Shown piece by piece: positions 41,095-63,214 of a stretch of 64,000 nt of DNA. The notes beneath the pieces were generated by a model. That model had not been told where the DNA came from. It ran no database searches and was given only the letters and a program-made list of their open reading frames with translations. Positions within the stretch are counted from its first letter, which is position 1. Every line of letters starts with the position of its first letter. The position numbers and the translations under genes were made by a program. Source of the stretch: Limnospira fusiformis SAG 85.79 (GTDB taxonomy: Bacteria; Cyanobacteriota; Cyanobacteriia; Cyanobacteriales; Microcoleaceae); assembly GCF_012516315.1 (NCBI RefSeq), contig NZ_CP051185.1:4407363-4471362 (forward strand), read 5' to 3'.

Positions 41095-41880
41095 TCAGAC
41101 CGGGGAAAATGCGACTTTGAATAGTAACCAGGACAAAAAGAAATCCAGAATAAAGATAGCCAGCAGGGACGTGACTACAGCAGTTGTAGTTGATTGTCCG
41201 ACTCCTTTAGCGCCTCCCGTCGTCGTCAGACCCCAACTGGTTCCAATCACAGCGATCGCCCACCCAAAGACCACCGACTTAATTTCCGCGCTAATCAAAT
41301 CCCACAATCCCATTAAATCTCGAATCGAATCGAGGAACAGCACCGATGGTATATTGTAAAAACTGGTAGCTATGAGTAACCCACCTGCTAACCCCGTAAT
41401 CAGACAAATGATGGTCAGTAGGGGAAGCATGAGAGAACAAGCCAGGACACGGGGAATCACCAGATAGTCCACCGGGTCAGTTTTCATAATATACAGCGCA
41501 TCAATTTGTTCTGTAACTCGCATAGTTCCCAATTCAGCAGCAAAAGCCGAACAGACCCTTCCCGCAATAATCACAGAAGTGAGAACCGGGGTAAGTTCAC
41601 GGCTGAGAGACAAAGCCAGAATTCCTCCCACCAAGTGACCTGCGCCCAGGGTAATAAATTCCTGTGCCACTTGAATAGTGAACACCATACCCACGAAACT
41701 AGCCGTCAGCAGGGCGATAAATAACGATTCTGGACCAACGATCGCCATTTGTTCTAGGGTATTGCGGCGGTGAATTTTCCCCTGTAGGATGTGCAGCAGA
41801 ACCTGTCCCCCCAAAAACAGCGAGGCGATAAAGCGTTGAGTCCAAATACCAAGGCTAGAACGGGTTTTAGTAGGATTCAA
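41095..41880 (-). CDS. MlaE family ABC transporter permease
   Basis: 261 residues, full length. Signature: IVGPESLFIALLTASFVGMVF, QVAQEFITLGAGHLVGGI, LSLSRELTPVLTSVIIAGRVCSA, ELGTMRVTEQIDAL, and TTTGGAKGVG. Five to six membrane helices. MlaE permeases move phospholipids or other lipids between the inner and outer membranes with an ATPase and an MCE-domain protein, which are not in the window. Truncated copies of its first 93 codons lie at 50710-50986 and 54687-54963. Confidence 0.92.
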   Translation of the reverse strand: MNPTKTRSSLGIWTQRFIASLFLGGQVLLHILQGKIHRRNTLEQMAIVGPESLFIALLTASFVGMVFTIQVAQEFITLGAGHLVGGILALSLSRELTPVLTSVIIAGRVCSAFAAELGTMRVTEQIDALYIMKTDPVDYLVIPRVLACSLMLPLLTIICLITGLAGGLLIATSFYNIPSVLFLDSIRDLMGLWDLISAEIKSVVFGWAIAVIGTSWGLTTTGGAKGVGQSTTTAVVTSLLAIFILDFFLSWLLFKVAFSPV

Positions 41881-46908: not shown

Positions 46909-47290
46909 TACCAATATTGTAGTTCGGCTTCTGACTCAAGATGATCCAGTCCAATATCAAAAAAGTCTAGAACTTTTTCAAAACCCGGAAATCTTCATTT
47001 CCCACACCGTTATCCTAGAAACCGAATGGGTGCTGAGATTTGCTTATAAGTTTAAACGGAATCAAGTTTGTTCGGCTTTACGGAAACTTGTGGGATTACC
47101 AAATGTTTACTTAACTAATCCGATGTTAGTTCATCAAGCCCTACTGTGGCATGAAAATGGTTTGGATTTTGCCGATGCTTTGCATCTAGCCCAAAGTCAA
47201 GATTGCCAGCAATTCTACACCTTTGATGAAAAATTCATTAAAAATGCCAGAGAGCTAACCAATTGTGAGGTCAAAAAACCAGGGGATTAA
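46895..47290 (+). CDS. PIN-domain toxin (VapC type)
   Basis: 131 residues: acidic residues in MIAVDTNIVVRLLTQDD, ETEWVLRFAYKF, NGLDFADALHLAQS and FYTFDEKFIKNA, the PIN active-site set for a Mg-dependent RNase. Partner of the AbrB-type antitoxin. Only this copy of three in the window is complete. Downstream (47308-47353) lies a tiny WD40 tail (FLRLEGWRG-stop). Confidence 0.9.
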   Translation: MIAVDTNIVVRLLTQDDPVQYQKSLELFQNPEIFISHTVILETEWVLRFAYKFKRNQVCSALRKLVGLPNVYLTNPMLVHQALLWHENGLDFADALHLAQSQDCQQFYTFDEKFIKNARELTNCEVKKPGD

Positions 47291-47523
47291 GAAGAGATAA
47301 TAAAAATGGTGGGACAGGTGTATTTTCTGCGGTTGGAGGGGTGGAGGGGTTGAGAAACGGGGTTGCTTAACCCGATGGGAGTGAGGCGGCAAAGGTTAGG
47401 GCAGAAACTGAGTTTATGGGATGTGGGTAGAGGGCAAGAAACCAGGTTGCTGGGACGATTTGAGCAAAGCCTCAAGGACAGTCAACCCTATAATGGAGAA
47501 GCACATTTTCTGGAGAGGACTCT

Positions 47524-47706
47524 ATGTTACTCAGCGAACTGTTACCTACCGTTAATCAGTTATCTCATCAAGATAAACTTCGACTGATCCACTTTCTCCT
47601 CTTGGCAGTCGCTAAGGAGGAAGGGTGTAGCCTAGAACTAACCAGAGAAGTTGACTCAGCGAATGAGTTGCTCCAGCAGCTTGCATCGACTGACGTGGCA
47701 GGATAA
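47524..47706 (+). pseudogene. Truncated small helical protein (partner of retropepsin-like gene)
   Basis: 60 codons. The first 57 match the 85-residue protein at 61137 (MLLSELLPTVNQLSHQDKLR, LIHFLLLAVAKEEGC); the frame then runs into the repeat boundary at 47694 (CGTGGCAGGATAACC) and stops. The aspartyl-protease gene that follows the intact copy is missing here. Confidence 0.7.
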
Positions 47707-47708
47707 CC

Positions 47709-48626
47709 ATGGATTTAAATAGGTTGATTCTTTTGAATAGTCGGCTATTGGGGGGAACCGCTTTGTTGGGGTTGGGTGCTATTGTCACCGGAGGATTAAG
47801 CGGCCCTGTTTTAGCCCTGGGGACTAATGTTACCTATGGCTTAATTGCTAACAACCTAGGCACATTAATAGACCGATTACGCAGCCAGAGTAGCGATGTT
47901 CTGCGGAATGAAGATATCGCCAAAGCCGCAGGACGCACGGTAGCCAAAGCCTTGACGGAAAAAATCAGCCCCAAGTATCCCGATATTCGGAAGTCCTTAG
48001 ATAAATTTGGGGACAATATCGAGGGTTATTGGGTGGAATGGGCGGAACAAGCCCAAACCCTGAACCTGTTTGAAACCCTCCAAGAACAGCAATTATATCA
48101 GATTTTCTGCCAACCACCGGAGCAGTTTACCGAGTATCAGGTTCTACCGGAACCGGAATGGCGGGAGGTGGTCACTTGGTTATTCCAACAGGGATGTGAG
48201 AGAGGGGTTTTGGGGGATACCCCGGAGAGTTATCAAGATGTCATCACCGACTTGGCGGCGGAATTAGCCGTTAACTTCAATAAACACTTGCGCCAAGTCC
48301 TGAAAGACGATGCCAACAACGGCGGGAAAGCCTTTGTGGGGATGTTATTTGACCTCCACGGGGCGACCTTGGCACAAATTGCCGAAATTCGGGAGGTTTT
48401 ACCCCAACTCGCCACCCGTCAGGATATGCGCCGGATATTAGCCGCCATTTCCCAATTACAAAACCCGAACCCCCCCGCACCCGCCACCCCTTGGCACGGT
48501 TTAGGGGCTGTGGATACCGTTCCCCAACCTCCCCCTCATTTTCTCCCCCGTCCTGAAGATATGGCGGCTTTAAAAGAACGACTGTTGACCCCACTTCTCA
48601 GGCTCTCTATCCCCTGGGTACGTTGA
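47709..48626 (+). CDS. STAND NTPase N-terminal fragment (stub 1)
   Basis: 305 residues. Residues 1-300 match the N-terminal region of the STAND protein at 55663: a hydrophobic start (LLGGTALLGLGAIVTGGLSG), helical domain, and linker PQPPPHFLPRPEDMAALKER. At LLTP the match ends and 10 unrelated residues (LLRLSIPWVR) precede the stop, so the NB-ARC domain is missing. It may still be expressed as a free N-terminal domain or be a relic. Confidence 0.65.
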   Translation: MDLNRLILLNSRLLGGTALLGLGAIVTGGLSGPVLALGTNVTYGLIANNLGTLIDRLRSQSSDVLRNEDIAKAAGRTVAKALTEKISPKYPDIRKSLDKFGDNIEGYWVEWAEQAQTLNLFETLQEQQLYQIFCQPPEQFTEYQVLPEPEWREVVTWLFQQGCERGVLGDTPESYQDVITDLAAELAVNFNKHLRQVLKDDANNGGKAFVGMLFDLHGATLAQIAEIREVLPQLATRQDMRRILAAISQLQNPNPPAPATPWHGLGAVDTVPQPPPHFLPRPEDMAALKERLLTPLLRLSIPWVR

Positions 48627-48704
48627 CGACGTTGTTTTCCTTCCCGATGATTATTTCGGCATATTTCACCTATCGCTATCTCGCCCGCCTCCCGCAGGGA
48701 TAAT
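48592..48704 (+). pseudogene. 3' fragment of a membrane protein gene
   Basis: In a frame different from the STAND stub, the sequence after the breakpoint reads TSQALYPLGTLTTLFSFPMI then ISAYFTYRYLARLPQG-stop, like the last helix of a transporter. No start. A second copy lies at 52569-52681. Confidence 0.5.
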
Positions 48705-48762
48705 CAGGGCTGACCCTATCTACACCCAGTCTTTCATAATATCCGAGTTAGACCGCAAGCGC

Positions 48763-48791
48763 TTGACAACACCCTGCTGATGTCTTATAAT
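48763..48791 (+). promoter_or_regulatory. Consensus promoter TTGACA-17-TATAAT, ParA module copy 1
   Basis: TTGACA at 48763-48768 and TATAAT at 48786-48791 with ideal 17-bp spacing. It follows GTTAGACCGCAAGCGC. A 101-bp MITE separates it from the first gene. Confidence 0.75.
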
Positions 48792-48810
48792 CGTTTTGGG
48801 TTCTAATACA

Positions 48811-48911
48811 TATAGCAGTCCTAAATGATTTGTCCCTAACCCTCTCCCGTTCTTAGCCGCCGACGGTTGGGGTCCGCCATCGTCTTCCACAACTGATTTA
48901 GGATGGCTATA
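48811..48911. mobile_element. 101-bp TA-type MITE between promoter and parA-like gene
   Basis: Inverted ends TATAGCAGTCCTAAATGATTTG and its complement ending GATTTAGGATGGCTATA, about 23 bp with few mismatches. TA ends suggest mobilisation by an IS630/Tc1-type transposase. Present also at 52788-52888. Confidence 0.75.
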
Positions 48912-48976
48912 GTTATGCAAATGCACCTAATACTGGCTAGAATTAATAGCTGTATTAAAAAAGCTGGAGGCTCTTC

Positions 48977-49588
48977 TTGATCAAGTATGTGGTCAACACT
49001 CCAAAAGGCGGTGTTGGAAAGACGACGATATCGACCAATCTAGCGCTCATGCTCGCCGCCAGACAGAAAAGAGTGTGGGCATTGGATCTAGCTCAGGGCA
49101 GCATAATGACTAGGATACTGTCAAATAGTCCTGTTTTTCAGGGTGGCTCATGCAAGATTGATACACGTGAAGGTCAGCAGCTTCCGATTAATTTTCCTGG
49201 GGCGAAAGCTTTTGATTATATGGTCGTCGATACAGACGACTATTGGGAGTACCTAAAAGATCTGTTAGAACAGGTAAATCGAGGATGGCGGCTGATTGCT
49301 CCGGTGCCTCCAGATGATGAGCTTGCACTAGATCGCGTTCCGGGTGATCTGAGCATACTTGCAGCAGCCGCCATGTCACAAGACAAGAATATCCCGTTCA
49401 AGATAGTTGCCAATAAGGTCACTACGTCCGATCAGAAACAACGACTTTATGAGGCATTACAGAAAACTGGTATTGCATCGCGCCTATCCGAGTACGTTGT
49501 ACCGCTTGTAGAGGGGCATCCGGGCTCCTTTTATGAGAACTCTGCTTTTGCAAAAGCACTCGATGGTGTATTGAGCGAATTAGGATAA
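48977..49588 (+). CDS. ParA/MinD-type ATPase, first gene of ParA module, copy 1
   Basis: 203 residues. Deviant Walker A K10-GGVGKTT in VNTPKGGVGKTTISTNLALM, switch/Walker B region AFDYMVVDTDDYWEYL, later FKIVANKVTTSDQKQR and VPLVEGHPGS. The canonical ParA aspartate in the switch I region (LDLAQGS here for LDxDPQ) is altered. Start is TTG 48977, supported by TGGAGG six bases upstream. ParA proteins polymerise on DNA or membranes to position cargo. Six bases separate it from gene two. Confidence 0.85.
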   Translation: MIKYVVNTPKGGVGKTTISTNLALMLAARQKRVWALDLAQGSIMTRILSNSPVFQGGSCKIDTREGQQLPINFPGAKAFDYMVVDTDDYWEYLKDLLEQVNRGWRLIAPVPPDDELALDRVPGDLSILAAAAMSQDKNIPFKIVANKVTTSDQKQRLYEALQKTGIASRLSEYVVPLVEGHPGSFYENSAFAKALDGVLSELG

Positions 49589-49594
49589 GTCCTT

Positions 49595-50035
49595 ATGATT
49601 ACAACTGACAGGATACTTAGCAAGCAGCTTCGCAAAGTAGCGGGTGAATCCATGTTCGCGAAATTAGAAGTGTGTCTGCGCAAAGATCGGCTAAACATGG
49701 ATCTTTTGGAACGTCTACGGAATCCCCTCGACACAAGAGACCCTCGATATGTAATCCAGCGTTCATTTATGTGTGTTAGCTTTTCGGAGTCTCAGCATGG
49801 CAAAGCATTCCTGGAAATGATTCATCCAGACTCAGCTTCTTCCGTGCTTAAAGCAGCGAAAGAGGAGCGGAGCACAAAGGACACTTATTTAGTGAAGATC
49901 CCTAGATGGCAAATTATGCTTCTTTCCAAATATGTAGAGGAAAAAATCGTCAAATCTAAAGGAGTTGAGGTACTTGTAAACGAAGTTTTGAGCAGGTGTG
50001 CTAAGTCTCTTGAGATAGTGATGAACGATGAGTAA
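49595..50035 (+). CDS. Unknown helical protein, second gene of ParA module, copy 1
   Basis: 146 residues, not recognised: LSKQLRKVAGESMFAKLEVC, SFMCVSFSESQHGKAFLEMI, KIPRWQIMLLSKYVEEKIV, and VLVNEVLSRCAKSLEIVMND. Mainly helical, no membrane segment. In the operon position of a ParB-like adaptor but without visible ParB motifs. Overlaps gene three by 8 bp. Confidence 0.75.
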   Translation: MITTDRILSKQLRKVAGESMFAKLEVCLRKDRLNMDLLERLRNPLDTRDPRYVIQRSFMCVSFSESQHGKAFLEMIHPDSASSVLKAAKEERSTKDTYLVKIPRWQIMLLSKYVEEKIVKSKGVEVLVNEVLSRCAKSLEIVMNDE

Positions 50036-50597
50036 GCTTCTTATAGAAGGTCTGGTTAACAAACTGCTGGATTTAACTCCAGTTGAAAAGGAATCCGTTG
50101 GCAATAGAATCACGGAGGCTCTTGGCGGCGATCCGACAAAAAAGGCACCCGGATTACCTAAGAGGCGCGGCAATCAAGACGGAGGCATCGATGGTCGAGT
50201 GCCAGTCTACCGCAAAGTTGTAAGGATGGAGGCAATGCTAACAGAATCTGGTCGAGAGGAAATCGTGTCGCGAGAAGAACCCGTAATGACTAAGGTGGAA
50301 GCTGGAATCACAATTAAATTGGAGGGTCAAACATTTAGTGCCGAGCGTCTCGGAGGGTTCAAAATCGCTTTGGAAAGAGAGAATCTTCGAGACGGTATTA
50401 TAATCACTGCTAGAGGTTTGTCTCCTGATGCTGCTGTGTACATCGAAAAGCTACATAAAGACACGGTATTTCGGTTTATAGCGCCTACACTTGGTGACTT
50501 TTTATCTCAGTCTGTCCCAGACAGCCCTATTGAGTTTGTGTGTGATCCTAATCAAGCGATTAGGAGCGCACTGCAACTTTACCTGGATAACACCTGA
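50028..50597 (+). CDS. Probable Mrr/PD-(D/E)xK-like protein, third gene of ParA module, copy 1
   Basis: 189 residues. The segment RRGNQDGGIDGRVPVYRKV resembles the GDGGIDG strand of Mrr-type restriction nucleases; then AGITIKLEGQTFS in the place of the catalytic beta strand, LGGFKIALERENLRDGIII, TARGLSPDAAVYIEKLHKDT and a C-terminal FRFIAPTLGDFL, matching the order F-x-G-x-L, G-x-x-I-T-T, S-x-x-A of Mrr. The usual QAK motif is not exact, so nuclease activity is uncertain. N-terminal 45 residues are helical. Confidence 0.65.
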   Translation: MSKLLIEGLVNKLLDLTPVEKESVGNRITEALGGDPTKKAPGLPKRRGNQDGGIDGRVPVYRKVVRMEAMLTESGREEIVSREEPVMTKVEAGITIKLEGQTFSAERLGGFKIALERENLRDGIIITARGLSPDAAVYIEKLHKDTVFRFIAPTLGDFLSQSVPDSPIEFVCDPNQAIRSALQLYLDNT

Positions 50598-50666
50598 TGG
50601 CAGCGGACGGAAGCCCCTAGTGCTGAGTTCCAGGTTACTTGCCGCCGCTGCATTCCACCGTTAAAC
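50585..50666 (+). other. attC-like imperfect palindrome after the ParA module, copy 1
   Basis: Outer pair GGATAAC (50585) and GTTAAAC (50660; fits GTTRRRY); inner pair GCAGCGG (50600-50606) and CCGCTGC (50645-50651); both arms have exactly 8 bases between outer and inner boxes. Length 82 bp. The outer left box fits RYYYAAC poorly. It begins inside the last codons of gene three. Called only as attC-like. Confidence 0.4.
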
Positions 50667-50709
50667 CAGTTCATCTAAAAGACGGCGATCGCCTCAATCG
50701 CCGCGATGC

Positions 50710-50986
50710 TGAGAGACAAAGCCAGAATTCCTCCCACCAAGTGACCTGCGCCCAGGGTAATAAATTCCTGTGCCACTTGAATAGTGAACACCATACCCAC
50801 GAAACTAGCCGTCAGCAGGGCGATAAATAACGATTCTGGACCAACGATCGCCATTTGTTCTAGGGTATTGCGGCGGTGAATTTTCCCCTGTAGGATGTGC
50901 AGCAGAACCTGTCCCCCCAAAAACAGCGAGGCGATAAAGCGTTGAGTCCAAATACCAAGGCTAGAACGGGTTTTAGTAGGATTCAA
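50710..50986 (-). pseudogene. mlaE 5' fragment, copy 1
   Basis: First 93 codons of the mlaE at 41880 (MNPTKTRSSLGIWTQRF ... GGILALSLS), then a junction at about 50710 and ten unrelated codons. It would give one to two membrane helices; treated as a relic of duplication of the mlaE-fasciclin region. Confidence 0.85.
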
Positions 50987-51184
50987 GGAACTGACTATGG
51001 TTGCAGTAGCAAATTGTATACCTGGTGGCTAGTAGCCGTAGTCCGATGATATCATTATATCAAATTTCCTATCATTTCCGCATCCGCCCGTCCCCCGTTG
51101 GTGGTTGCCAAGCTGAATTTTAGATCCAATTTAGTCTAGGATTAAGTGGAAATTGTTATTTTCGAGTTGGGTAAATTAGGATAA

Positions 51185-51586
51185 ATGGCGGATATTGTAG
51201 ATATAGCAGTGAGTGCCGGGTGTTTCACCACCTTGGTGGCAGCGGTACAGGCAGCGGGATTAGTGGAAACCCTGAAAACTCCCGGTCCTTTTACCGTTTT
51301 TGCGCCCCATGATGATGCTTTTGCGAAACTCCCCCCCGGAACTGTTCAGACCTTAGTGCAGAACCCACCCCAGTTAGCGCGGATTTTAACATATCATGTG
51401 GCTGCTGGCAAGTTCCTGAAGGCAGACCTAGAAAAACTGGATTATTTAACTTCCGTGGAAGGTGCGCCTATTTCTCTGAATTTTACCGAGGGATTTGAGG
51501 TGAAAAATGCGACAGTTATCAACCCCGATATTGAAGCAGACAATGGGGTGATTCATGTGATTGATACAGTCATTTTAATGGGGTGA
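51185..51586 (+). CDS. Fasciclin-domain protein, second copy
   Basis: 133 residues, protein identical to 42079-42480 ([19 protein letters not shown] ... [13 protein letters not shown]). The intergenic region to the truncated mlaE is also copied, so its promoter is retained. Confidence 0.92.
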
Positions 51587-51685
51587 TATTCCCAGTTACC
51601 AATACCGGAAAAATCCCCGCCCACCCCCCAGGTTTAAGTAGACAATCAAGGCAGTTGTAGTCAGTGCATTCGTGGCAGGATAACC

Positions 51686-52603
51686 ATGGATTTAAATAGG
51701 TTGATTCTTTTGAATAGTCGGCTATTGGGGGGAACCGCTTTGTTGGGGTTGGGTGCTATTGTCACCGGAGGATTAAGCGGCCCTGTTTTAGCCCTGGGGA
51801 CTAATGTTACCTATGGCTTAATTGCTAACAACCTAGGCACATTAATAAACCGATTACGCAGCCAGAGTAGCGATGTGCTGCGGAATGAAGATATCGCCAA
51901 AGCCGCAGGACGCACGGTAGCCAAAGCCTTGACCGAAAAAATCAGCCCCAAGTATCCCGATATTCGGAAGTCCTTAGATAAATTTGGGGACAATATCGAG
52001 GGTTATTGGGTGGAATGGGCCGAACAAGCCCAAACCCTGAACCTGTTTGAAACCCTCCAAGAACAGCAATTATATCAGATTTTCTGCCAACCACCGGAGC
52101 AGTTTACCGAGTATCAGGTTCTACCCGAACCGGAATGGCGGGAGGTCGTCACCTGGTTATTCCAACAGGGATGCGAGAAGGGGGTTTTGGGGGATACCCC
52201 GGAGAGTTATCAAGATGTCATCACCGACTTGGCGGGGGAATTAGCCACTAACTTCAATAAACACTTGCGCCAAGTCCTGAAAGACGATGCCAACAACGGC
52301 GGGAAAGCCTTTGTGGGGATGTTATTTGACCTGCATGGGGCGACCTTGGCACAAATTGCCGAAATTCGGGAGGTTTTACCCCAACTCGCCACCCGTCAGG
52401 ATATGCGCCGGATATTAGCCGCCATTTCCCAATTACAAAACCCGAACCCCCCCGCACCCGCCACCCCTTGGCACGGTTTAGGGGCTGTGGATACGGTTCC
52501 CCAACCTCCCCCTCATTTTCTCCCCCGTCCTGAAGATATGGCGGCTTTAAAAGAACGACTGTTGACCCCACTTCTCAGGCTCTCTATCCCCTGGGTACGT
52601 TGA
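51686..52603 (+). CDS. STAND NTPase N-terminal fragment (stub 2)
   Basis: 305 residues, nearly identical to stub 1, with the same breakpoint after LKERLLTP and the same unrelated tail LLRLSIPWVR. GELATNF here against AELAVNF in stub 1 follows the full-length gene at 55663, so the stubs are not perfectly equal. Confidence 0.65.
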   Translation: MDLNRLILLNSRLLGGTALLGLGAIVTGGLSGPVLALGTNVTYGLIANNLGTLINRLRSQSSDVLRNEDIAKAAGRTVAKALTEKISPKYPDIRKSLDKFGDNIEGYWVEWAEQAQTLNLFETLQEQQLYQIFCQPPEQFTEYQVLPEPEWREVVTWLFQQGCEKGVLGDTPESYQDVITDLAGELATNFNKHLRQVLKDDANNGGKAFVGMLFDLHGATLAQIAEIREVLPQLATRQDMRRILAAISQLQNPNPPAPATPWHGLGAVDTVPQPPPHFLPRPEDMAALKERLLTPLLRLSIPWVR

Positions 52604-52739
52604 CGACGTTGTTTTCCTTCCCGATGATTATTTCGGCATATTTCACCTATCGCTATCTCGCCCGCCTCCCGCAGGGATAATCAGGGCTGACCCTATCTAC
52701 ACCCAGTCTTTCATAATATCCGAGTTAGACCGCAAGCGC

Positions 52740-52768
52740 TTGACAACACCCTGCTGATGTCTTATAAT
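52740..52768 (+). promoter_or_regulatory. Consensus promoter TTGACA-17-TATAAT, ParA module copy 2
   Basis: Same sequence and spacing as 48763-48791, again after GTTAGACCGCAAGCGC. Confidence 0.75.
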
Positions 52769-52787
52769 CGTTTTGGGTTCTAATACA

Positions 52788-52888
52788 TATAGCAGTCCTA
52801 AATGATTTGTCCCTAACCCTCTCCCGTTCTTGGCCGCCGACGGTTGGGGTCTGCCATCGTCTTCCACAACTGATTTAGGATGGCTATA
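52788..52888. mobile_element. 101-bp TA-type MITE, second copy
   Basis: Same inverted ends and place as 48811-48911; it came along with the tandem duplication rather than by a separate insertion. Confidence 0.75.
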
Positions 52889-52953
52889 GTTATGCAAATG
52901 CACCTAATACTGGCTAGAATTAATAGCTGTATTAAAAAAGCTGGAGGCTCTTC

Positions 52954-53565
52954 TTGATCAAGTATGTGGTCAACACTCCAAAAGGCGGTGTTGGAAAGAC
53001 GACGATATCGACCAATCTAGCGCTCATGCTCGCCGCCAGACAGAAAAGAGTGTGGGCATTGGATCTAGCTCAGGGCAGCATAATGACTAGGATACTGTCA
53101 AATAGTCCTGTTTTCCAGGGTGGCTCATGCAAGATTGATACACGTGAAGGTCAGCAGCTTCCGATTAATTTTCCTGGGGCGAAAGCTTTTGATTATATGG
53201 TCGTCGATACAGACGACTATTGGGAGTACCTAAAAGATCTGTTAGAACAGGTAAATCGAGGATGGCGGCTGATTGCTCCGGTGCCTCCAGATGATGAGCT
53301 TGCACTAGATCGCGTTCCGGGTGATCTGAGCATACTTGCAGCAGCCGCCATGTCACAAGACAAGAATATCCCGTTCAAGATAGTTGCCAATAAGGTCACT
53401 ACGTCCGATCAGAAACAACGACTTTATGAGGCATTACAGAAAACTGGTATTGCATCGCGCCTATCCGAGTACGTTGTACCGCTTGTAGAGGGGCATCCGG
53501 GATCCTTTTATGAGAACTCTGCTTTTGCAAAAGCACTCGATGGTGTATTGAGCGAATTAGGATAA
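52954..53565 (+). CDS. ParA/MinD-type ATPase, ParA module copy 2
   Basis: 203 residues, protein identical to the copy at 48977. TTG start with TGGAGG upstream. KGGVGKTT Walker A intact. Conservation of all three frames in both units suggests that the genes are recent duplicates or kept in use. Confidence 0.85.
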   Translation: MIKYVVNTPKGGVGKTTISTNLALMLAARQKRVWALDLAQGSIMTRILSNSPVFQGGSCKIDTREGQQLPINFPGAKAFDYMVVDTDDYWEYLKDLLEQVNRGWRLIAPVPPDDELALDRVPGDLSILAAAAMSQDKNIPFKIVANKVTTSDQKQRLYEALQKTGIASRLSEYVVPLVEGHPGSFYENSAFAKALDGVLSELG

Positions 53566-53571
53566 GTCCTT

Positions 53572-54012
53572 ATGATTACAACTGACAGGATACTTAGCAA
53601 GCAGCTTCGCAAAGTAGCGGGTGAATCCATGTTCGCGAAATTAGAAGTGTGTCTGCGCAAAGATCGGCTAAACATGGATCTTTTGTATCGTCTACGGAAT
53701 CCCCTCAACACAAGAGACCCTCGATATGTAATCCAGCGTTCATTTATGTGTGTTAGCTTTTCGGAGTCTCAGCATGGCAAAGCATTCCTGGAAATGATTC
53801 ATCCAGACTCAGCTTCTTCCGTGCTTAAAGCAGCGAAAGAGGAGCGGAGCACAAAGGACACTTATTTAGTGAAGATCCCTAGATGGCAAATTATGCTTCT
53901 TTCCAAATATGTAGAGGAAAAAATCGTCAAATCTAAAGGAGTTGAGGTACTTGTAAACGAAGTTTTGAGCAGGTGTGCTAAGTCTCTTGAGATAGTGATG
54001 AACGATGAGTAA
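53572..54012 (+). CDS. Unknown helical protein, ParA module copy 2
   Basis: 146 residues; two substitutions from copy 1 (E to Y in DLLYRLRNP, D to N in LNTRDPRY). Same 6-bp gap before and 8-bp overlap after. Confidence 0.75.
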   Translation: MITTDRILSKQLRKVAGESMFAKLEVCLRKDRLNMDLLYRLRNPLNTRDPRYVIQRSFMCVSFSESQHGKAFLEMIHPDSASSVLKAAKEERSTKDTYLVKIPRWQIMLLSKYVEEKIVKSKGVEVLVNEVLSRCAKSLEIVMNDE

Positions 54013-54574
54013 GCTTCTTATAGAAGGTCTGGTTAACAAACTGCTGGATTTAACTCCAGTTGAAAAGGAATCCGTTGGCAATAGAATCACGGAGGCTCTT
54101 GGCGGCGATCCGACAAAAAAGGCACCCGGATTACCTAAGAGGCGCGGCAATCAAGACGGAGGCATCGATGGTCGAGTGCCAGTCTACCGCAAAGTTGTAA
54201 GGATGGAGGCAATGCTAACAGAATCTGGTCGAGAGGAAATCGTGTCGCGAGAAGAACCCGTAATGACTAAGGTGGAAGCTGGAATCACAATTAAATTGGA
54301 GGGTCAAACATTTAGTGCCGAGCGTCTCGGAGGGTTCAAAATCGCTTTGGAAAGAGAGAATCTTCGAGACGGTATTATAATCACTGCTAGAGGTTTGTCT
54401 CCTGATGCTGCTGTGTACATCGAAAAGCTACATAAAGACACGGTATTTCGGTTTATAGCGCCTACACTTGGTGACTTTTTATCTCAGTCTGTCCCAGACA
54501 GCCCTATTGAGTTTGTGTGTGATCCTAATCAAGCGATTAGGAGCGCACTGCAACTTTACCTGGATAACACCTGA
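54005..54574 (+). CDS. Probable Mrr/PD-(D/E)xK-like protein, ParA module copy 2
   Basis: 189 residues, identical to copy 1 (GNQDGGIDGR, GITIKLEGQTFS, GIIITARGLSPDA). Followed by the same attC-like palindrome. Confidence 0.65.
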   Translation: MSKLLIEGLVNKLLDLTPVEKESVGNRITEALGGDPTKKAPGLPKRRGNQDGGIDGRVPVYRKVVRMEAMLTESGREEIVSREEPVMTKVEAGITIKLEGQTFSAERLGGFKIALERENLRDGIIITARGLSPDAAVYIEKLHKDTVFRFIAPTLGDFLSQSVPDSPIEFVCDPNQAIRSALQLYLDNT

Positions 54575-54643
54575 TGGCAGCGGACGGAAGCCCCTAGTGC
54601 TGAGTTCCAGGTTACTTGCCGCCGCTGCATTCCACCGTTAAAC
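54562..54643 (+). other. attC-like imperfect palindrome, copy 2
   Basis: Same as 50585-50666: GGATAAC, GCAGCGG, CCGCTGC, GTTAAAC with symmetric 8-base gaps. Confidence 0.4.
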
Positions 54644-54686
54644 CAGTTCATCTAAAAGACGGCGATCGCCTCAATCGCCGCGATGC

Positions 54687-54963
54687 TGAGAGACAAAGCC
54701 AGAATTCCTCCCACCAAGTGACCTGCGCCCAGGGTAATAAATTCCTGTGCCACTTGAATAGTGAACACCATACCCACGAAACTAGCCGTCAGCAGCGCGA
54801 TAAATAACGATTCTGGACCAACGATCGCCATTTGTTCTAGGGTATTGCGGCGGTGAATTTTCCCCTGTAGGATGTGCAGCAGAACCTGTCCCCCCAAAAA
54901 CAGCGAGGCGATAAAGCGTTGAGTCCAAATACCAAGGCTAGAACGGGTTTTAGTAGGATTCAA
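54687..54963 (-). pseudogene. mlaE 5' fragment, copy 2
   Basis: Same 93-codon fragment and junction as 50710-50986. Confidence 0.85.
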
Positions 54964-55161
54964 GGAACTGACTATGGTTGCAGTAGCAAATTGTATACCT
55001 GGTGGCTAGTAGCCGTAGTCCGATGATATCATTATATCAAACTTCCTATCATTTCCGCATCCGCCCGTCCCCCGTTGGTGGTTGCCAAGCTGAATTTTAG
55101 CTCCAATTTAGTCTAGGATTAAGTGGAAATTGTTATTTTCGAGTTGGGGAAATTAGGATAA

Positions 55162-55563
55162 ATGGCGGATATTGTAGATATAGCAGTGAGTGCCGGGTGT
55201 TTCACCACCTTGGTGGCAGCGGTACAGGCAGCGGGATTAGTGGAAACCCTGAAAACTCCCGGTCCTTTTACCGTTTTTGCGCCCCATGATGATGCTTTTG
55301 CGAAACTCCCCCCCGGAACTGTTCAGACCTTAGTGCAGAACCCACCCCAGTTAGCGCGGATTTTAACATATCATGTGGCTGCTGGCAAGTTCCTGAAGGC
55401 AGACCTAGAAAAACTGGATTATTTAACTTCCGTGGAAGGTGCGCCTATTTCTCTGAATTTTACCGAGGGATTTGAGGTGAAAAATGCCACAGTTATCAAC
55501 CCCGATATTGAAGCAGACAATGGGGTGATTCATGTGATTGATACAGTCATTTTAATGGGGTGA
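55162..55563 (+). CDS. Fasciclin-domain protein, third copy
   Basis: 133 residues, identical protein to the other two copies. The one real gene that each duplication unit preserves complete besides the ParA module. Confidence 0.92.
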
Positions 55564-55662
55564 TATTCCCAGTTACCAATACCGGAAAAATCCCCGCCCA
55601 CCCGCCAGGTTTAAGTAGACAATCAAGGCAGTTGTAGTCAGTGCATTCGTGGCAGGATAACC

Positions 55663-57813
55663 ATGGATTTAAATAGGTTTATTAGTTTGAATAGTCCGCT
55701 ATTGGGGGGAACCGCTTTGTTGGGGTTGGGTGCTATTGTCACCGGAGGATTAAGCGGCCCTGTTTTAGCCCTGGGGACTAATGTTACCTATGGCTTAATT
55801 GCTAACAACCTAGGCACATTAATAGACCGATTACGCAGCCAGAGTAGCGATGTTCTGCGGAATGAAGATATCGCCAAAGCCGCAGGACGCACGGTAGCCA
55901 AAGCCTTGACCGAAAAAATCAGCCCCAACTATTCCGACAAGGAATCCTTAGACGATTTCGCTAATCAAATCGAGGAATATTGGCTGCAATGGGCCGAACA
56001 AGCCAAAACCCTCAACCTGTTTGAAACCCTCCAAGAACAGCAATTATATCAGATTTTCTGCCAACCACCCGAGCAGTTTACCGAGTATCAGGTTCTACCC
56101 GAACCGGAATGGCGGGAGGTCGTCACCTGGTTATTCCAACAGGGATGCGAGAAGGGGGTTTTGGGGGATACCCCGGAGAGTTATCAAGATGTCATCACCG
56201 ACTTGGCGGGGGAATTAGCCACTAACTTCAATAAACACTTGCGCCAAGTCCTGAAAGACGATGCCAACAACGGCGGGAAAGCCTTTGTGGGGATGTTATT
56301 TGACCTGCATGGGGCAACCTTGGCACAAATTGCCGAAATTCGGGACTATTTACCCCAACTCGCCACCCGTCAGGATATGCGCCGGATATTAGCCGCCATT
56401 TCCCAATTACAAAACCCGAACCCCCCCGCACCCGCCACCCCTTGGCACGGTTTAGGGGCTGTGGATACGGTTCCCCAACCTCCCCCTCATTTTCTCCCCC
56501 GTCCTGAAGATATGGCGGCTTTAAAAGAACGACTTTTGACCCCCAACCATCAAACCCTAGTGATGACGGGACAGGTGCAGAAAGTCGGGTTACAGGGGAT
56601 GGGAGGACTAGGGAAAACGGTGTTAGCGGCAGCCTTAGGGCGGGATAACGAGGTGCGGCGACAGTTTCCCGATGGGATTATCTGGCTGACGGTGGGGACT
56701 AACCCGGACTGTCTCGCCCTGTATCAACGCCTTGCCAACACCTTGGGGGAAACCAACGCCTATCTGGAAGGAGAACCCCAGTGGAATGCCTATCTCTCCA
56801 ATTTGTTGCGGGAGAAACGCTGTTTATTGGTTCTCGATGATGTGTGGTCACAACGGGAAGCGGAGCGATTTGTGGAGGTGTTGGGGCCGGACTGTCGCCT
56901 GTTGCTGACGACGCGGGATGCCCGGTTAATTGCGGGGTTGGGGGCTAATGGCTATGAGTTGGGGATGCTGGATGAGACCCAAGCGCGACAATTATTAGCC
57001 AATTGGGCGAGAGTTCATGTCGAAATGTTACCCCCAGAAGCGGAGGCGGTGCGGAAACATTGCGGGAATTTGCCCTTAGCCTTGACGTTGGCTGGGGCGC
57101 AAATTGGCATGGGCAACAATTGGGCGGATTTGCTGACGGCGTTGGATGCGGCGGATTTGCACTATCTCGACCCTTCCGAGGGCAGTATCTATAAAGTCCT
57201 CAAAACCAGTGTGGAGCAGTTAGCGGCATCCTTGCGACAGGCGTATTTAGACTTAGGGATTGTGGCAGCGGATGTGCAAGTGTCGGAGGCGGCGTTAGTC
57301 AAGTTGTGGGGACGGCGGGGGGATATGCCGGACTATCGGTTGCGGCAGTGGTTGACGGAGTTGGCGCAACGGGGGTTAGTGTTTGTGTCGGGGGAGTCGC
57401 CCTCGCGGTGGATGTCCTTGCATGACGTGCCGCAGAAGTATTTACGGGAACAGGTGCAGAATCCGGCGACGTTGCATCGAGACTGGTTGCGGAGTTATGG
57501 CGGCGGCCAGTTTCCCTGGACGGGGGCGGAGGTGGCGGCAGAGGTTTATCTGTATCGGCAGGGGCTTTATCATTTCCGAGAAGCGGGGGAAATAGCAGCG
57601 TTTCGGCGGTTGTTATGGGATTTTGATTGGTTACAAGGGAAGTTAGAGGCAACGGATAGTCGGGCGTTGTTGGCAGATTTTGAGGCGGTGACGGTTGGGG
57701 AGAGTCGGGACAGTGGGCTGAAGCGGCTGGAAGGGGCGTTGCGGTTATCGGCTCATGTGTTGGAGAAGGATAGCAGTCAGTTGGCGGGGCAGTTATTGGG
57801 GCGGTTGTTGTGA
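55663..57813 (+). CDS. STAND NTPase (NB-ARC), C-terminal WD40 part cut off
   Basis: 716 residues. N-terminal effector-like region with a hydrophobic start (GGTALLGLGAIVTGG), then NB-ARC: Walker A GMGGLGKT near residues 312-319, Walker B CLLVLDDVW near 387-395, LLLTTRDARL, and GNLPLALTLAG (GLPL motif). A winged-helix and helical region follows up to LAGQLLGRLL, where related proteins continue into WD40 repeats. Here the gene stops and a HindIII-type restriction-modification pair follows; WD40 repeats resume at 59650. STAND proteins of this shape act as signal or infection sensors. Confidence 0.88.
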   Translation: MDLNRFISLNSPLLGGTALLGLGAIVTGGLSGPVLALGTNVTYGLIANNLGTLIDRLRSQSSDVLRNEDIAKAAGRTVAKALTEKISPNYSDKESLDDFANQIEEYWLQWAEQAKTLNLFETLQEQQLYQIFCQPPEQFTEYQVLPEPEWREVVTWLFQQGCEKGVLGDTPESYQDVITDLAGELATNFNKHLRQVLKDDANNGGKAFVGMLFDLHGATLAQIAEIRDYLPQLATRQDMRRILAAISQLQNPNPPAPATPWHGLGAVDTVPQPPPHFLPRPEDMAALKERLLTPNHQTLVMTGQVQKVGLQGMGGLGKTVLAAALGRDNEVRRQFPDGIIWLTVGTNPDCLALYQRLANTLGETNAYLEGEPQWNAYLSNLLREKRCLLVLDDVWSQREAERFVEVLGPDCRLLLTTRDARLIAGLGANGYELGMLDETQARQLLANWARVHVEMLPPEAEAVRKHCGNLPLALTLAGAQIGMGNNWADLLTALDAADLHYLDPSEGSIYKVLKTSVEQLAASLRQAYLDLGIVAADVQVSEAALVKLWGRRGDMPDYRLRQWLTELAQRGLVFVSGESPSRWMSLHDVPQKYLREQVQNPATLHRDWLRSYGGGQFPWTGAEVAAEVYLYRQGLYHFREAGEIAAFRRLLWDFDWLQGKLEATDSRALLADFEAVTVGESRDSGLKRLEGALRLSAHVLEKDSSQLAGQLLGRLL

Positions 57814-57868: not shown

Positions 57869-58783
57869 ATGACTCAAGTAATTTCAGAAGATGCTATAAA
57901 AAGGCGAGAACAGTGGATTCAAAAAATCAAAAATCTGAGCGGAAGATTTGGGGTCAATGTGGAAAGCGTAGAAAACGAATTGAAAAGAGAAATAAAACAA
58001 TTTGGCTCAGATGTATTGATTGATCATTTGCGACTTTGTGGCAATATTCCCGAAGAATATAAGCATGACTCCAGTGAAGAGAAATTATACTCAAAGTACA
58101 CGGACAGCCTTTTATCTTTTACATATAACGAAATGGGGCTGACCAGTATTGTTTTAACGGAAAAGTCCAATTCAGCAGACGTTGAAGCAGTTGCGAAAAA
58201 CTATAGCTTCGTTGCGGACGCTAAAGTCTTTAGACTCAGTAGAACAGCTAAAAATCAAAAGGACTTCAAAATTCAAGCACTGGATAATTGGAAAAGAGGT
58301 AAACCCTATGCAATGGTAGTTGCCCCAATTTATCAATTGCCAACTCGAAAAAGTCAAATTTATGAGCAAGCATCAAGTAGAAATGTTTGTATTGTAACTT
58401 ATTCACATTTGTCCCTATTTGTTAACTATGCAAGAAGAGAAGGTAAATCTAAAGCCGAGGAGTTACTCAACCAAATTTTTACTACAATTCCTGCATTAAA
58501 TCCTTCTACAAGTGCGGTTGATTATTGGTTGGCTGTAAACAAGACAATTTTGAGTTTTTCAAGTATCATTGATGAGCTTTGGAAATTGGAGAAAGAAGCA
58601 GCTACTGAATCGACAAGGATTGCCAAAAATGAAGGAATCAGATTTTTGGCTTCTGAGCGGGAAAAAATCATGAGAATGAACCGTGAAGAAGCTGTGATGG
58701 AACTGATTAAAGTTAGCAAAATAGATAGTAAAATTAACAAAATTCAGTCTATTGGTGATAGTAATTTATTTGCAATCAAATAA
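57869..58783 (+). CDS. HindIII-type type II restriction endonuclease
   Basis: 304 residues. Catalytic PD-(D/E)xK residues: E106 in SADVEAVAK, and D117-A-K119 in SFVADAKVFRLSRTAKNQKD, the segment typical of HindIII. Also YAMVVAPIYQLPTRKSQIYEQ and NVCIVTYSHLSLF. HindIII isoschizomers cut AAGCTT; that specificity is inferred from family. Low G+C compared with the STAND sequence on both sides points to horizontal transfer. The methylase starts 12 bp downstream. Confidence 0.88.
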   Translation: MTQVISEDAIKRREQWIQKIKNLSGRFGVNVESVENELKREIKQFGSDVLIDHLRLCGNIPEEYKHDSSEEKLYSKYTDSLLSFTYNEMGLTSIVLTEKSNSADVEAVAKNYSFVADAKVFRLSRTAKNQKDFKIQALDNWKRGKPYAMVVAPIYQLPTRKSQIYEQASSRNVCIVTYSHLSLFVNYARREGKSKAEELLNQIFTTIPALNPSTSAVDYWLAVNKTILSFSSIIDELWKLEKEAATESTRIAKNEGIRFLASEREKIMRMNREEAVMELIKVSKIDSKINKIQSIGDSNLFAIK

Positions 58784-58795
58784 GGTGAATTAATC

Positions 58796-59611
58796 ATGGT
58801 TGATGTTAATCAGATTATTAAAGGAAATTGTATCGAAGTGATGAAGTCCTTTGATGAAAATTCAATTGACTTAACTATCACCTCCCCTCCTTACGATAAT
58901 TTAAGAAAATACAAAGGATATACTTTTCCTTTTGAAGAAATAGCACGGCAATTGTATCGTGTGACCAAGCCAGGTGGTATTGTTGTTTGGATAGTTGGCG
59001 ATGCCACTATCAAAGGAAGTGAAACTGGTACAAGTTTTAAGCAAGCTCTTTATTTTAAAGAAGAAATTGGCTTTAATCTTCATGACACAATGATTTTTCA
59101 AAAATCTAATCCCATACCACAGATTTATAGGAAAAGATATAATAACATTTTTGAGTATATGTTTGTTTTCAGCAAGGGAAATGTCAAAACCCATAATCCC
59201 ATAAAAATTGATTGCTTACACGCAGGACTTGAACTCCATGGAACTACTTATAAAAATTATTCTAGAGGCAAGCAAAAGCGGGGGAAAATGGCCCACCCGG
59301 TCAAAAATCAAAAGATAAAAGGTAATATTTGGGAATATGTTGTTGGCAAAAAATCAGAAGATCAAGAAGCAAAAGATCATCCGGCTCCCTTCCCTTGTGC
59401 CCTGGCTTGTGACCATATTAAATCCTGGACAAATCCAGGAGAAATAGTGCTTGATCCAATGTGTGGAAGCGGGACTACTTGTAGATCTGCATTTCAACTT
59501 GGAAGGCAATATATCGGGATTGAAATTAGTCATGAATATTGTGAATTGGCAAGAAAACGGATTCAAAAAATTGAAGCGCAGCCCAGATTACCCATATTGG
59601 ATTTAGAATAA
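58796..59611 (+). CDS. DNA adenine/cytosine-N4 methyltransferase of the HindIII-type system
   Basis: 271 residues. Motif IV TSPPYDNL (S30-PPY) comes before motif I LDPMCGSGTTCRSA, the beta-class order; AdoMet binding continues in GRQYIGIEISHEYCELARKR. It should protect AAGCTT sites from the preceding nuclease. M.HindIII is an N6-adenine enzyme, so that chemistry is likely. Endonuclease-then-methylase order on one strand, 12-bp gap. Confidence 0.9.
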   Translation: MVDVNQIIKGNCIEVMKSFDENSIDLTITSPPYDNLRKYKGYTFPFEEIARQLYRVTKPGGIVVWIVGDATIKGSETGTSFKQALYFKEEIGFNLHDTMIFQKSNPIPQIYRKRYNNIFEYMFVFSKGNVKTHNPIKIDCLHAGLELHGTTYKNYSRGKQKRGKMAHPVKNQKIKGNIWEYVVGKKSEDQEAKDHPAPFPCALACDHIKSWTNPGEIVLDPMCGSGTTCRSAFQLGRQYIGIEISHEYCELARKRIQKIEAQPRLPILDLE

Positions 59612-59651
59612 TAAAGCACATGAAAATATATTGAATTGTTCGGTTTTTTCG

Positions 59652-60206
59652 TTATCCAAGAATACCACCCTGAAACTGTGGGATTTGGAGAGGGGGAGGG
59701 AACTGGCTACCCTCAGAGGGCATAGTTGGTCGGTAAATGCAGTAGCGATCGCCCCCGACGGGAAACGAGCGGTCTCGGCATCCATGGATAAAACCCTGAA
59801 ACTGTGGGATTTGGAGAGGGGGAGGGAACTGGCTACCCTCAGAGGGCATAGTTGGTCGGTAAATGCAGTAGCGATCGCCCCCGACGGGTTCCGAGCGGTC
59901 TCGGCATCCATGGATAAAACCCTGAAACTGTGGGATTTGGAGAGGGCGACGGAACTGGCCACCCTCAGAGGGCATAGTAGCGTGGTAAATGCAGTAGCGA
60001 TCGCCCCCGACGGGAAACGAGCCGTCTCTGCATCGGATGATAAAACCCTGAAACTGTGGGATTTGGCGACAGGGGATGTGTTAGCCACCTTTACCGGGGA
60101 TGCTGATATGCTTTCCTGTGCCGTTGCACCGGATGGGGTGACGGTGGTGGCGGGGGATAGTGGGGGTCGGATGTATTTTCTGCGGTTGGAGGGGTTGAGC
60201 GGTTAA
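59652..60206 (+). pseudogene. WD40 tail of the split STAND protein
   Basis: Four WD40 repeats of the form TLKLWDLERGRELATLRGHS, WSVNAVAIAPDGKRAVSAS, ending FLRLEGLSG-stop. The repeats are near-identical in DNA, each with GTAGCGATCGCCCCCGACGG. An upstream ATG-like start is inside the junction sequence (MNCSVFSLSKN), so the piece has no proper start. It is probably the missing end of the STAND gene at 55663. Confidence 0.8.
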
Positions 60207-62460: not shown

Positions 62461-62569
62461 ATTGTCTTTATGAAGTCCATTAGGGTTAGGGATAATTGAG
62501 AGATTTGAGGGTTGATGGTAGCTCCTCAATTCTAGCCAATCTGCATCAACGGCGATCGCACCGGGTGAA

Positions 62570-63214
62570 ATGGCGATCGCACCACGGGAAGCCATGGGAG
62601 GACATAGTAACCGGGTAGAAGCAGTAGCGATCGCCCCCGACGGGAAACGAGCGGTCTCGGCATCGTCGGATAAAACCCTGAAACTGTGGGATTTGGAGAC
62701 CGGGACGGAACTGGCCACCCTTACTGGGCATAGTTGGTCGGTAAATGCAGTAGCGATCGCCCCCGACGGGTTCCGAGCGGTCTCGGCATCCATGGATAAA
62801 ACCCTGAAACTATGGTATTTGGCGACGGGGACGGAACTGGCTACCCTCACCGGGCATAGTCGCGGGGTAAATGCAGTAGCGATCGCCCCCGACGGGAAAC
62901 GAGCGGTCTCGGCATCCATGGATAAAACCCTGAAACTGTGGGATTTGGAGAGGGCGACGGAACTGGCCACCCTCAGAGGGCATAGTTGGTCGGTAAATGC
63001 AGTAGCGATCGCCCCCGACGGGAAACGAGCCGTCTCTGCATCGGATGATAAAACCCTGAAACTGTGGGATTTGGAGACGGGGGAAGTGTTAGCCACCTTC
63101 ACCGGGGAAGGTGCGATGGAGTCCTGTGCCATTGCACCGGATGGGGTGACGGTGGTGGCGGGGGATGGGTCGGGGCGGGTGTATTTTCTGCGGTTGGAGG
63201 GGTTGAGCGGTTAA
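62570..63214 (+). pseudogene. WD40 tail, five repeats, of a lost STAND protein
   Basis: Repeats of the form SSDKTLKLWDLETGTELATL, TGHSWSVNAVAIAPDGFRAV, ending FLRLEGLSG-stop. The HIP1 core GCGATCGC falls at the same place in each repeat. Although a frame starts at ATG 62570, the N-terminal and NTPase domains are absent, so this is called a fragment. Followed by an AbrB/PIN remnant as in the other copies. Confidence 0.75.

Follow-up and report, generated by a model that had tools for sequence, protein, structure and literature searches.

A three-gene cassette of cyanobacteria combining a ParA-type ATPase without the switch-I aspartate, a predicted tandem ribbon-helix-helix protein and a predicted Mrr-like nuclease

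What could a ParA-type ATPase, a small protein without a Pfam family and a predicted restriction-type nuclease accomplish together? The genome of the cyanobacterium Limnospira fusiformis SAG 85.79 raises this question on a stretch of 64,000 nucleotides (contig NZ_CP051185.1, positions 4,407,363 to 4,471,362; referred to as the window), on whose plus strand three genes, the trio, are read in the order ParA, middle gene, Mrr-like nuclease gene (Table 1). Known tasks of ParA-type switches are the positioning of DNA, of protein assemblies, and of inhibitors of cell division, and an earlier note, written from the letters of the window alone, proposed that an ATPase-guided nuclease or surveillance module is encoded here. 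The current analysis supports this interpretation in part. The anatomy of the trio is well supported, and from it we infer a function: in the best reading, to which we assign a probability of about 0.42, a Par-derived ATP switch and a ribbon-helix-helix (RHH) protein load and aim the nuclease, probably against foreign DNA.

Conservation and distribution of the trio

The trio is a conserved three-gene module whose members are inherited together. Separate searches of one set of 291 genomes from the order with profiles of the nuclease, the ParA, and the middle protein (10 ParA candidates being scored per genome) gave hits in 10, 9, and 9 genomes, respectively, and nine genomes are shared by all three, which is the co-occurrence that the earlier note had suggested looking for. 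The tenth nuclease genome (G087) contains only a C-terminal Mrr remnant, the other two genes being missing. The order ParA, middle gene, nuclease gene is maintained in 13/13 distinct loci with a complete set, i.e., the window and 12 further ones, mostly with overlaps or short gaps, a recurrence beyond chance, and the true three-gene unit that had been suspected from a single locus is supported. Two of the 13 loci carry one broken gene each: in G098 it is that of the nuclease, in G226 that of the ParA. Furthermore, the pairwise protein distances of the three genes are strongly correlated with each other (r = 0.936, 0.934, and 0.931), and each of these values was reached by 0 of 2,000 permutations. 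The distances and all residue counts given below refer to 12 loci, which include the broken ones and the near-identical G047, G052, and G053 but not that of Dolichospermum. With respect to the alignments A5, A6, and A7, G047 was left out of all three due to its near identity with G052, the broken nuclease of G098 was left out of A5, the broken ParA of G226 out of A6, and the double middle proteins of G047, G052, and G053 out of A7; Calothrix and Dolichospermum are present in none of them.

Relatives of the nuclease were detected in 5/61 genomes drawn from the family, 10/291 from the order, 6/386 from the phylum, and 13/387 from the surroundings of Calothrix; these draws overlap and count the own genome where it was drawn, and the Calothrix draw, which apparently represents the same order, overlaps that of the 291 genomes. 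An alignment-based scan of contigs from about 85,000 species retrieved eight loci, all of them cyanobacterial (Calothrix, Oscillatoriales, Dolichospermum, Spirulinaceae, Baaleninema, and Planktothrix), unlike a query of genome contigs with a single protein, which gave no match. The cassette is accessory in nature, as documented by its patchy distribution, by a site that is occupied in some genomes and empty in others, and by the presence of two trios in one genome. At the site in question, in genome group g10, the cassette fills 2,265 bp beside an apparent isocitrate dehydrogenase gene; 106 and 151 bp separate the same flanks in two of five trio-free relatives, and a single flank was found in the fetched stretch of the other three. 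The genome with two trios, G241, harbors clearly different versions on separate contigs (L030 and L031), the second of which differs in its ParA by having Lys-x-Ser where Asp-x-Ala would be expected from the first and is accompanied by XisH and XisI genes.

Five loci are located on contigs of at least 3.8 Mb (G000, G115, G098 with its broken nuclease, G196, and Calothrix), one of which is labeled as a chromosome; the shorter draft contigs are uninformative about a chromosomal or plasmid location. Genes two and three had no match in 72,556 plasmid records, and the 13 matches of the ParA were weak (26 to 32% identity, mostly with ParAs of sphingomonad plasmids), so that a plasmid partition set, which the earlier note had considered as a competing label, was rejected. 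Gene three, the one gene searched in phage records, had no match there; genes three and one, the two searched in viral contigs, likewise had none, and no plasmid or viral contig with the complete set was found. In G115 (L032) and Dolichospermum UHCC 0259 (L041), the trio is located directly downstream, and on the same strand, of an apparent fatty acid synthesis cluster, as judged by eye.

Three proteins with unusual features

Judged by its sequence, the first protein belongs to the ParA superfamily (Pfam CbiA, E = 5.3e-13, with AAA_31 and ParA also above cut-off) but is incomplete as a ParA with respect to its active site. K10 and K15 of the deviant Walker A motif KGGxGK[ST] are invariant in 12/12 loci. 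Residue 39, which corresponds to the position of Soj D44 and MipZ D42, is Ala in nine and Ser in three of the 12 loci and Asp in none; the designation ParA-type ATPase in the earlier note is correct for the family, but the usual catalytic Asp is absent. The genome has 15 AAA_31 matches, comprising the two copies of the trio described below, six paralogues of the KGG type, and seven proteins without a KGG motif, which were left unjudged, and an Asp is found at the switch-I position of 6/6 KGG-type paralogues identified by motif search. In the alignment with the Soj chain 2bek, Ala39 falls on Ala44, and the D44A variant of Soj is described in a passage of PMC9178275 as an ATPase mutant that was crystallized as a dimer. 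An excerpt of PMC7229837 portrays the corresponding D42A variant of MipZ as a dimer that is locked, binds DNA, and hydrolyzes ATP at a very low level. The natural presence of Ala or Ser at the position where an exchange of Asp for Ala locks MipZ dimers on DNA thus predicts slow or absent hydrolysis and a long residence on DNA. A pair of aspartates, D87-D88, embedded in DTDD or DSDD, occurs in 12/12 loci and might compensate for the missing switch-I Asp.

For the third protein, a PD-(D/E)xK nuclease fold of the MspJI/AspBHI type is predicted, in agreement with the Mrr-like character ascribed to it before; a different fold, which the earlier note would have taken as a refutation, is thus not supported. 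Its AlphaFold2 (AF2) model (predicted local distance difference test [pLDDT] score of 86) resembles the catalytic domain of MspJI (Foldseek E = 6.4e-4, Z = 9.3), AspBHI (Z = 9.8, root mean square deviation of 4.2 over 136 residues), and FokI (Z = 8.1), and the lower-ranked matches consist of RNA polymerase Rpb5 subunits and further nucleases. The Pfam profile Mrr_cat recognizes the window protein with 17.2 bits (E = 0.0058), which is below the 21-bit cut-off, and matches 7/9 members of the nuclease family at E values up to 0.1 (best, 3.3e-6); a sequence-profile search of the PDB with the nuclease returned nothing relevant. Neither D55, the Asp of GGIDG, nor K97, the Lys of the second motif, varies among the 12 loci. 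The residue two positions ahead of this Lys is usually D, E, or Q in PD-(D/E)xK motifs, according to part of the text of PMC3874153. At this position of the trio nuclease, residue 95, nine of the 12 loci have N, two have S, and one has T. Residue 99, which is located on the same strand as K97 and two positions after it, is E or Q and might stand in for the missing acidic residue. The ratio of nonsynonymous to synonymous substitution rates (dN/dS), calculated from three close genomes with few changes, is 0.31 to 0.65 for the nuclease and 0.35 to 0.59 for the ParA.

The middle protein, previously described as helical, is better characterized as a predicted tandem RHH protein like TraY and DndE, an assignment that we make with moderate confidence and from weak scores. 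Its AF2 model (pLDDT 82), built from eight sequences, consists of an N-terminal helix and two strand-helix-helix units (E23-29, H35-42, H50-65 and E97-103, H104-121, H124-144). The five top positions of a VIA-align comparison are held by entries of the F-plasmid relaxosome (Z = 5.6 to 4.6), followed by DndE (Z = 4.3 and 3.3) and by unrelated structures at 3.2 and lower, all values being less than 8 and thus possibly reflecting a common arrangement only. A single sequence in the relaxosome entries corresponds to the F TraY protein (six entries with 18 chains, e.g., 9f0x_E, the other chain letters being deduced), and DndE and TraY are presented in a section of PMC10853773 as tandem RHH proteins with the same topology. 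The fourth and eighth matches in a viral structure library are named RHH or CopG proteins. The middle protein has no Pfam family, no Pfam RHH family was detected in eight members, and no PDB sequence match of note was obtained. Two copies of the middle protein are fused in G047, G052, and G053 (L026:8693-9622), which would probably provide four RHH units per chain.

Possible functions and their alternatives

In the reading that we prefer, a self-contained accessory cassette would build an ATP-switched, DNA-loaded nuclease. ParA would bind ATP and dimerize on DNA, where it would stay unusually long in the ATP- and DNA-bound state because the usual catalytic Asp is missing, unless hydrolysis is taken over by D87-D88. 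The predicted tandem RHH protein, which like TraY, DndE, and VirC2 would form a pseudo-dimer from one chain, would recognize DNA and dock on ParA, and the complex would then recruit or license the small Mrr-like nuclease, whose fold is likewise predicted, for the cleavage of DNA picked by the other two proteins. Since the nuclease is too small for a recognition domain of its own and is accompanied by an ATP-held ParA and an RHH reader, the first two proteins are suggested to choose and hold the DNA that the nuclease would cut. As for target and benefit, restriction of incoming phage or plasmid DNA would be the most likely use given the patchy, horizontally acquired look of the cassette, the type of nuclease, the decayed state of the cassette in several genomes, and the presence of restriction- and toxin-type genes near the window trio. 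A more ambitious version of this idea, that the trio represents a DNA-surveillance system absent from the libraries and papers searched, in which a partition-derived, Asp-less ParA serving as a long-lived, ATP-bound DNA clamp and tandem RHH targeting license an Mrr-type nuclease to destroy DNA and the ParA-RHH pair has shifted from moving DNA to cutting it, is rather doubtful. If true, it would extend the roles of ParA switches to the choice of DNA for destruction and provide a minimal three-gene test system with each gene being smaller than 0.9 kb.

The kinds of components are known, and their combination, together with an Asp-less ParA within it, appears to be new. As expected from the earlier note, no named system with this trio was found in four profile libraries or in the open-licence papers searched, one of these searches being limited by its wording. 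Among the PADLOC 2023 profiles, genes two and three had no match up to an E value of 1, and gene one matched only PDC-M28B, with residues 5 to 38 representing the P-loop (E = 5.4e-4). The nuclease resembles Mrr_cat and MspJI-AspBHI endonucleases in its predicted fold (Z = 9.3 to 9.8), in the Asp and Lys of the motif, and in the Mrr_cat profile of most members, but it comprises less than 200 amino acids, has [N/S/T]xK instead of (D/E/Q)xK, is encoded together with ParA and tandem RHH genes, and lacks an SRA-like N-terminal domain such as that reported for MspJI in the relevant part of PMC3874153. For VirC1-VirC2 of Agrobacterium T-DNA transfer, passages in PMC8406263 report a Par-like ATPase and an RHH-fold protein that aid a DNA-processing relaxase, and an extract of PMC5425179 describes the RHH fold of VirC2; there, a relaxase and a secretion system are involved, whereas the trio has an Mrr-like nuclease and no transfer genes were seen nearby, the likeness being one of descriptions only. 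An ATPase paired with a tandem RHH protein and accompanied by nearby nucleases is also mentioned for the phosphorothioate system DndD-DndE in a portion of PMC10853773, and in the structure comparison of the middle protein, DndE ranks next after TraY. DndD is, however, an ABC-type ATPase and not a ParA-type one, and the cassette is devoid of a modification enzyme. In view of the parallel cases DndDE and VirC1-VirC2, the combination of an ATPase, a tandem RHH protein, and a DNA-cutting enzyme may be a recurring design.

Several observations weigh against a ParA-aimed nuclease for restriction. The nuclease motif lacks its second acidic residue, with [N/S/T]xK in place of (D/E/Q)xK, and the enzyme may consequently be weak or dead. 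When the nuclease was compared by hhalign with each of two Mrr_cat proteins encoded in this genome, neither alignment reached significance; one of them paired K97 with the Lys of QVK, and the other covered an unrelated stretch. In addition to the low VIA-align scores of the middle protein, Foldseek alone found no significant match for it (best E = 0.62; best in the viral library, 8.6e-3), and the dN/dS of its gene in the three close genomes with their few changes is 0.62 to 1.16, which may reflect relaxed constraint. In G226, the ParA frame is broken and the middle and nuclease genes are open, and in G098, only the Mrr gene is affected. Finally, the neighbors of the trio are mostly housekeeping-like and do not form a defense island as judged by eye, and no PADLOC family, among the families listed (25 of 45), matched more than 2 of 79 neighbor proteins; the 79 proteins were taken from 91 neighboring open reading frames, nine of L035 and three others having been left out.

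An alternative that we regard as unlikely is a toxin-antitoxin-like or self-guarding module, in which a harmful nuclease is restrained by the tandem RHH protein, whose fold is of the antitoxin type, and by ParA, both of which repress the operon, and release of the nuclease leads to the death or arrest of a cell that is infected or free of the cassette. The overlapping or closely spaced genes would be in line with such a module, as would the state of G098, where no gene but that of the nuclease is broken, and of G087, where only a remnant of it persists, both of which are expected of a costly nuclease. Toxin-antitoxin-type neighbors also occur close to the trio in the window and in L029 (a PIN protein according to Pfam, others by eye). 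In contrast, G226 keeps open nuclease and middle genes despite its broken ParA, an ATPase is unusual in such pairs, and no autoregulatory site could be named.

Even less probable is a Par-like module for the positioning or transfer of DNA, comparable to type Ib partition or VirC1-VirC2, whose nuclease would process the cargo DNA, e.g., by nicking or resolving it. A short ParA with an RHH partner is reminiscent of both ParF-ParG, as portrayed in fragments of PMC9178275, and VirC1-VirC2 (PMC8406263, same passages), and TraY of the F relaxosome is the top structural match of the middle protein. The resemblance to ParF-ParG includes the absence of an N-terminal helix-turn-helix from the short ParA and the RHH gene that follows (PMC9178275, same fragments), but the trio is found on chromosomes, lacks the switch-I Asp, has two RHH units per chain, and possesses a nuclease as the third gene. 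The location of five loci on megabase contigs, the lack of plasmid or viral contigs with the set, and the absence of evident relaxase or secretion genes among the listed neighbors (by eye) speak against such a module, and the loss of the hydrolytic Asp would halt the ATP cycle that moves a cargo. A shared operator or centromere was not found either, since nothing is common to the 12 regions of 160 bp upstream of ParA: no repeat array is seen in 11/12 loci, the remaining one containing a single tandem 8-bp pair, and palindromes are present in six of the 12 loci, G047, G052, and G053 sharing the same ones. Sites that are degenerate or extend over a wider region may still be present.

A poor prospect, and a slightly poorer one than DNA positioning, is that the nuclease is dead and the trio acts as a DNA-binding regulator or nucleoid-structuring complex. 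The replacement of the second acidic residue by N, S, or T would fit this idea, but neither D55 nor K97 varies, a putative substitute is available in residue 99 on the same face of the strand, and the dN/dS of the Mrr gene is below 1.

The weakest explanation, a selfish mobile cassette whose nuclease cuts target DNA and which is spread by repair, with ParA and the RHH protein serving targeting or regulation, could build on the compactness of the cassette, its patchy spread, the occupied and unoccupied site in one genus, the direct repeat around the G049 set, and the tandem duplication in the window, but is very improbable given insertion places that vary between genera, unlike in homing, the lack of shared terminal repeats, and a further copy of the G049 repeat nearby. 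Conserved terminal inverted or direct repeats were not detected within 250 bp on either side of the 12 loci, and homing or transposition with shared ends was therefore rejected. The exceptions are a 12-bp direct match in G241a (1/100 shuffles) and a direct match of at least 20 bp in G049 (0/100); the best inverted match, of 10 bp in G052, was reached by 8/100 shuffles and is absent from G047 and G053. The direct repeat that flanks the G049 trio (L029) is 77 bp long and 88% identical (positions 7639-7715 and 9550-9626), and because an additional shorter copy is located at 7380-7446, it may be merely a dispersed repeat.

The window locus

The gene structure recorded in the earlier note was confirmed, i.e., a ParA with KGGVGKTT, a TTG start, and a GGAGG ribosome binding site, a 146-residue protein after a gap of 6 bp, and a 189-residue protein that overlaps it by 8 bp and contains the segments GGIDG, FKIAL, and IIITARGLSPDA. 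The consensus promoter reported upstream does exist as a perfect sigma-70-type match, but it is about 185 nt away from ParA, from which it is separated by a fold-back repeat of about 100 bp (Table 1). What had been missed is a tandem duplication, as a unit of 3,977 bp is present twice in the window and provides two complete copies of the trio. These copies (1,621 bp) differ in five bases, two of which are silent changes in ParA and three of which are located in the middle gene, with none in the nuclease gene, whereas the NB-ARC fragments of the two units (918 bp) differ in 16 bases. The copies of the trio are thus closer to each other than the NB-ARC fragments, as though the trio were constrained or converted.

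Table 1. Positions of the trio, its duplicate and further features in the window
Feature	Position	Strand	Remark
ParA-type ATPase, 203 aa, TTG start	48977..49588	+	K10/K15 of KGGVGKTT present; Ala39 at catalytic Asp position; D87-D88 pair
Middle gene, 146 aa, predicted tandem RHH protein	49595..50035	+	Structure model; no Pfam family
Predicted Mrr/MspJI-type PD-(D/E)xK nuclease, 189 aa	50028..50597	+	D55 ... T95-x-K97; Pfam, model, structure comparison
Ribosome binding site of ParA	48966..48970		GGAGG
Sigma-70-type promoter-like site	48763..48791	+	12/12 consensus, 17-nt spacer
Dispersed fold-back repeat (like a miniature inverted-repeat transposable element)	48811..48911	+	Between promoter and ParA
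41-bp stretch with further copies	48735..48775		Reaches into promoter -35 box
Tandem-repeat unit 1	47694..51670		Truncated NB-ARC gene start, trio, MlaE gene fragment, fasciclin gene
Tandem-repeat unit 2	51671..55647		Same 3,977-bp unit composition
Second complete trio	52954..54574		
ParA, second copy	52954..53565	+	Protein identical to first
Middle gene, second copy	53572..54012	+	Two residues differ from first
Mrr-like nuclease, second copy	54005..54574	+	DNA identical to first
Complete MlaE gene	41095..41880		
Complete NB-ARC gene	55663..57813		
HindIII-type restriction endonuclease gene, then N6/N4 DNA methylase gene	57869..59611		
WD40-like repeats, first block	59523..60200		126-bp period
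WD40-like repeats, second block	62531..63208		126-bp period

The HindIII-type restriction-modification pair, the NB-ARC protein, and a PIN protein (assigned by Pfam) are encoded near the window trio. A search of Rfam with the region 47000-56000 gave no match. Relatives of the fold-back element with 72 to 74% identity are found at three other places in the genome, its fold z is -2.4, and 5/200 shuffles fold equally. The 41-bp stretch that extends into the -35 box of the promoter has five further genomic copies within 55 kb of the trio, and TTGACA is also present in the one copy that was inspected. The WD40-like repeats at the end of the window form two blocks about 3 kb apart, and similar 126-bp arrays occur in the sister genome G009.

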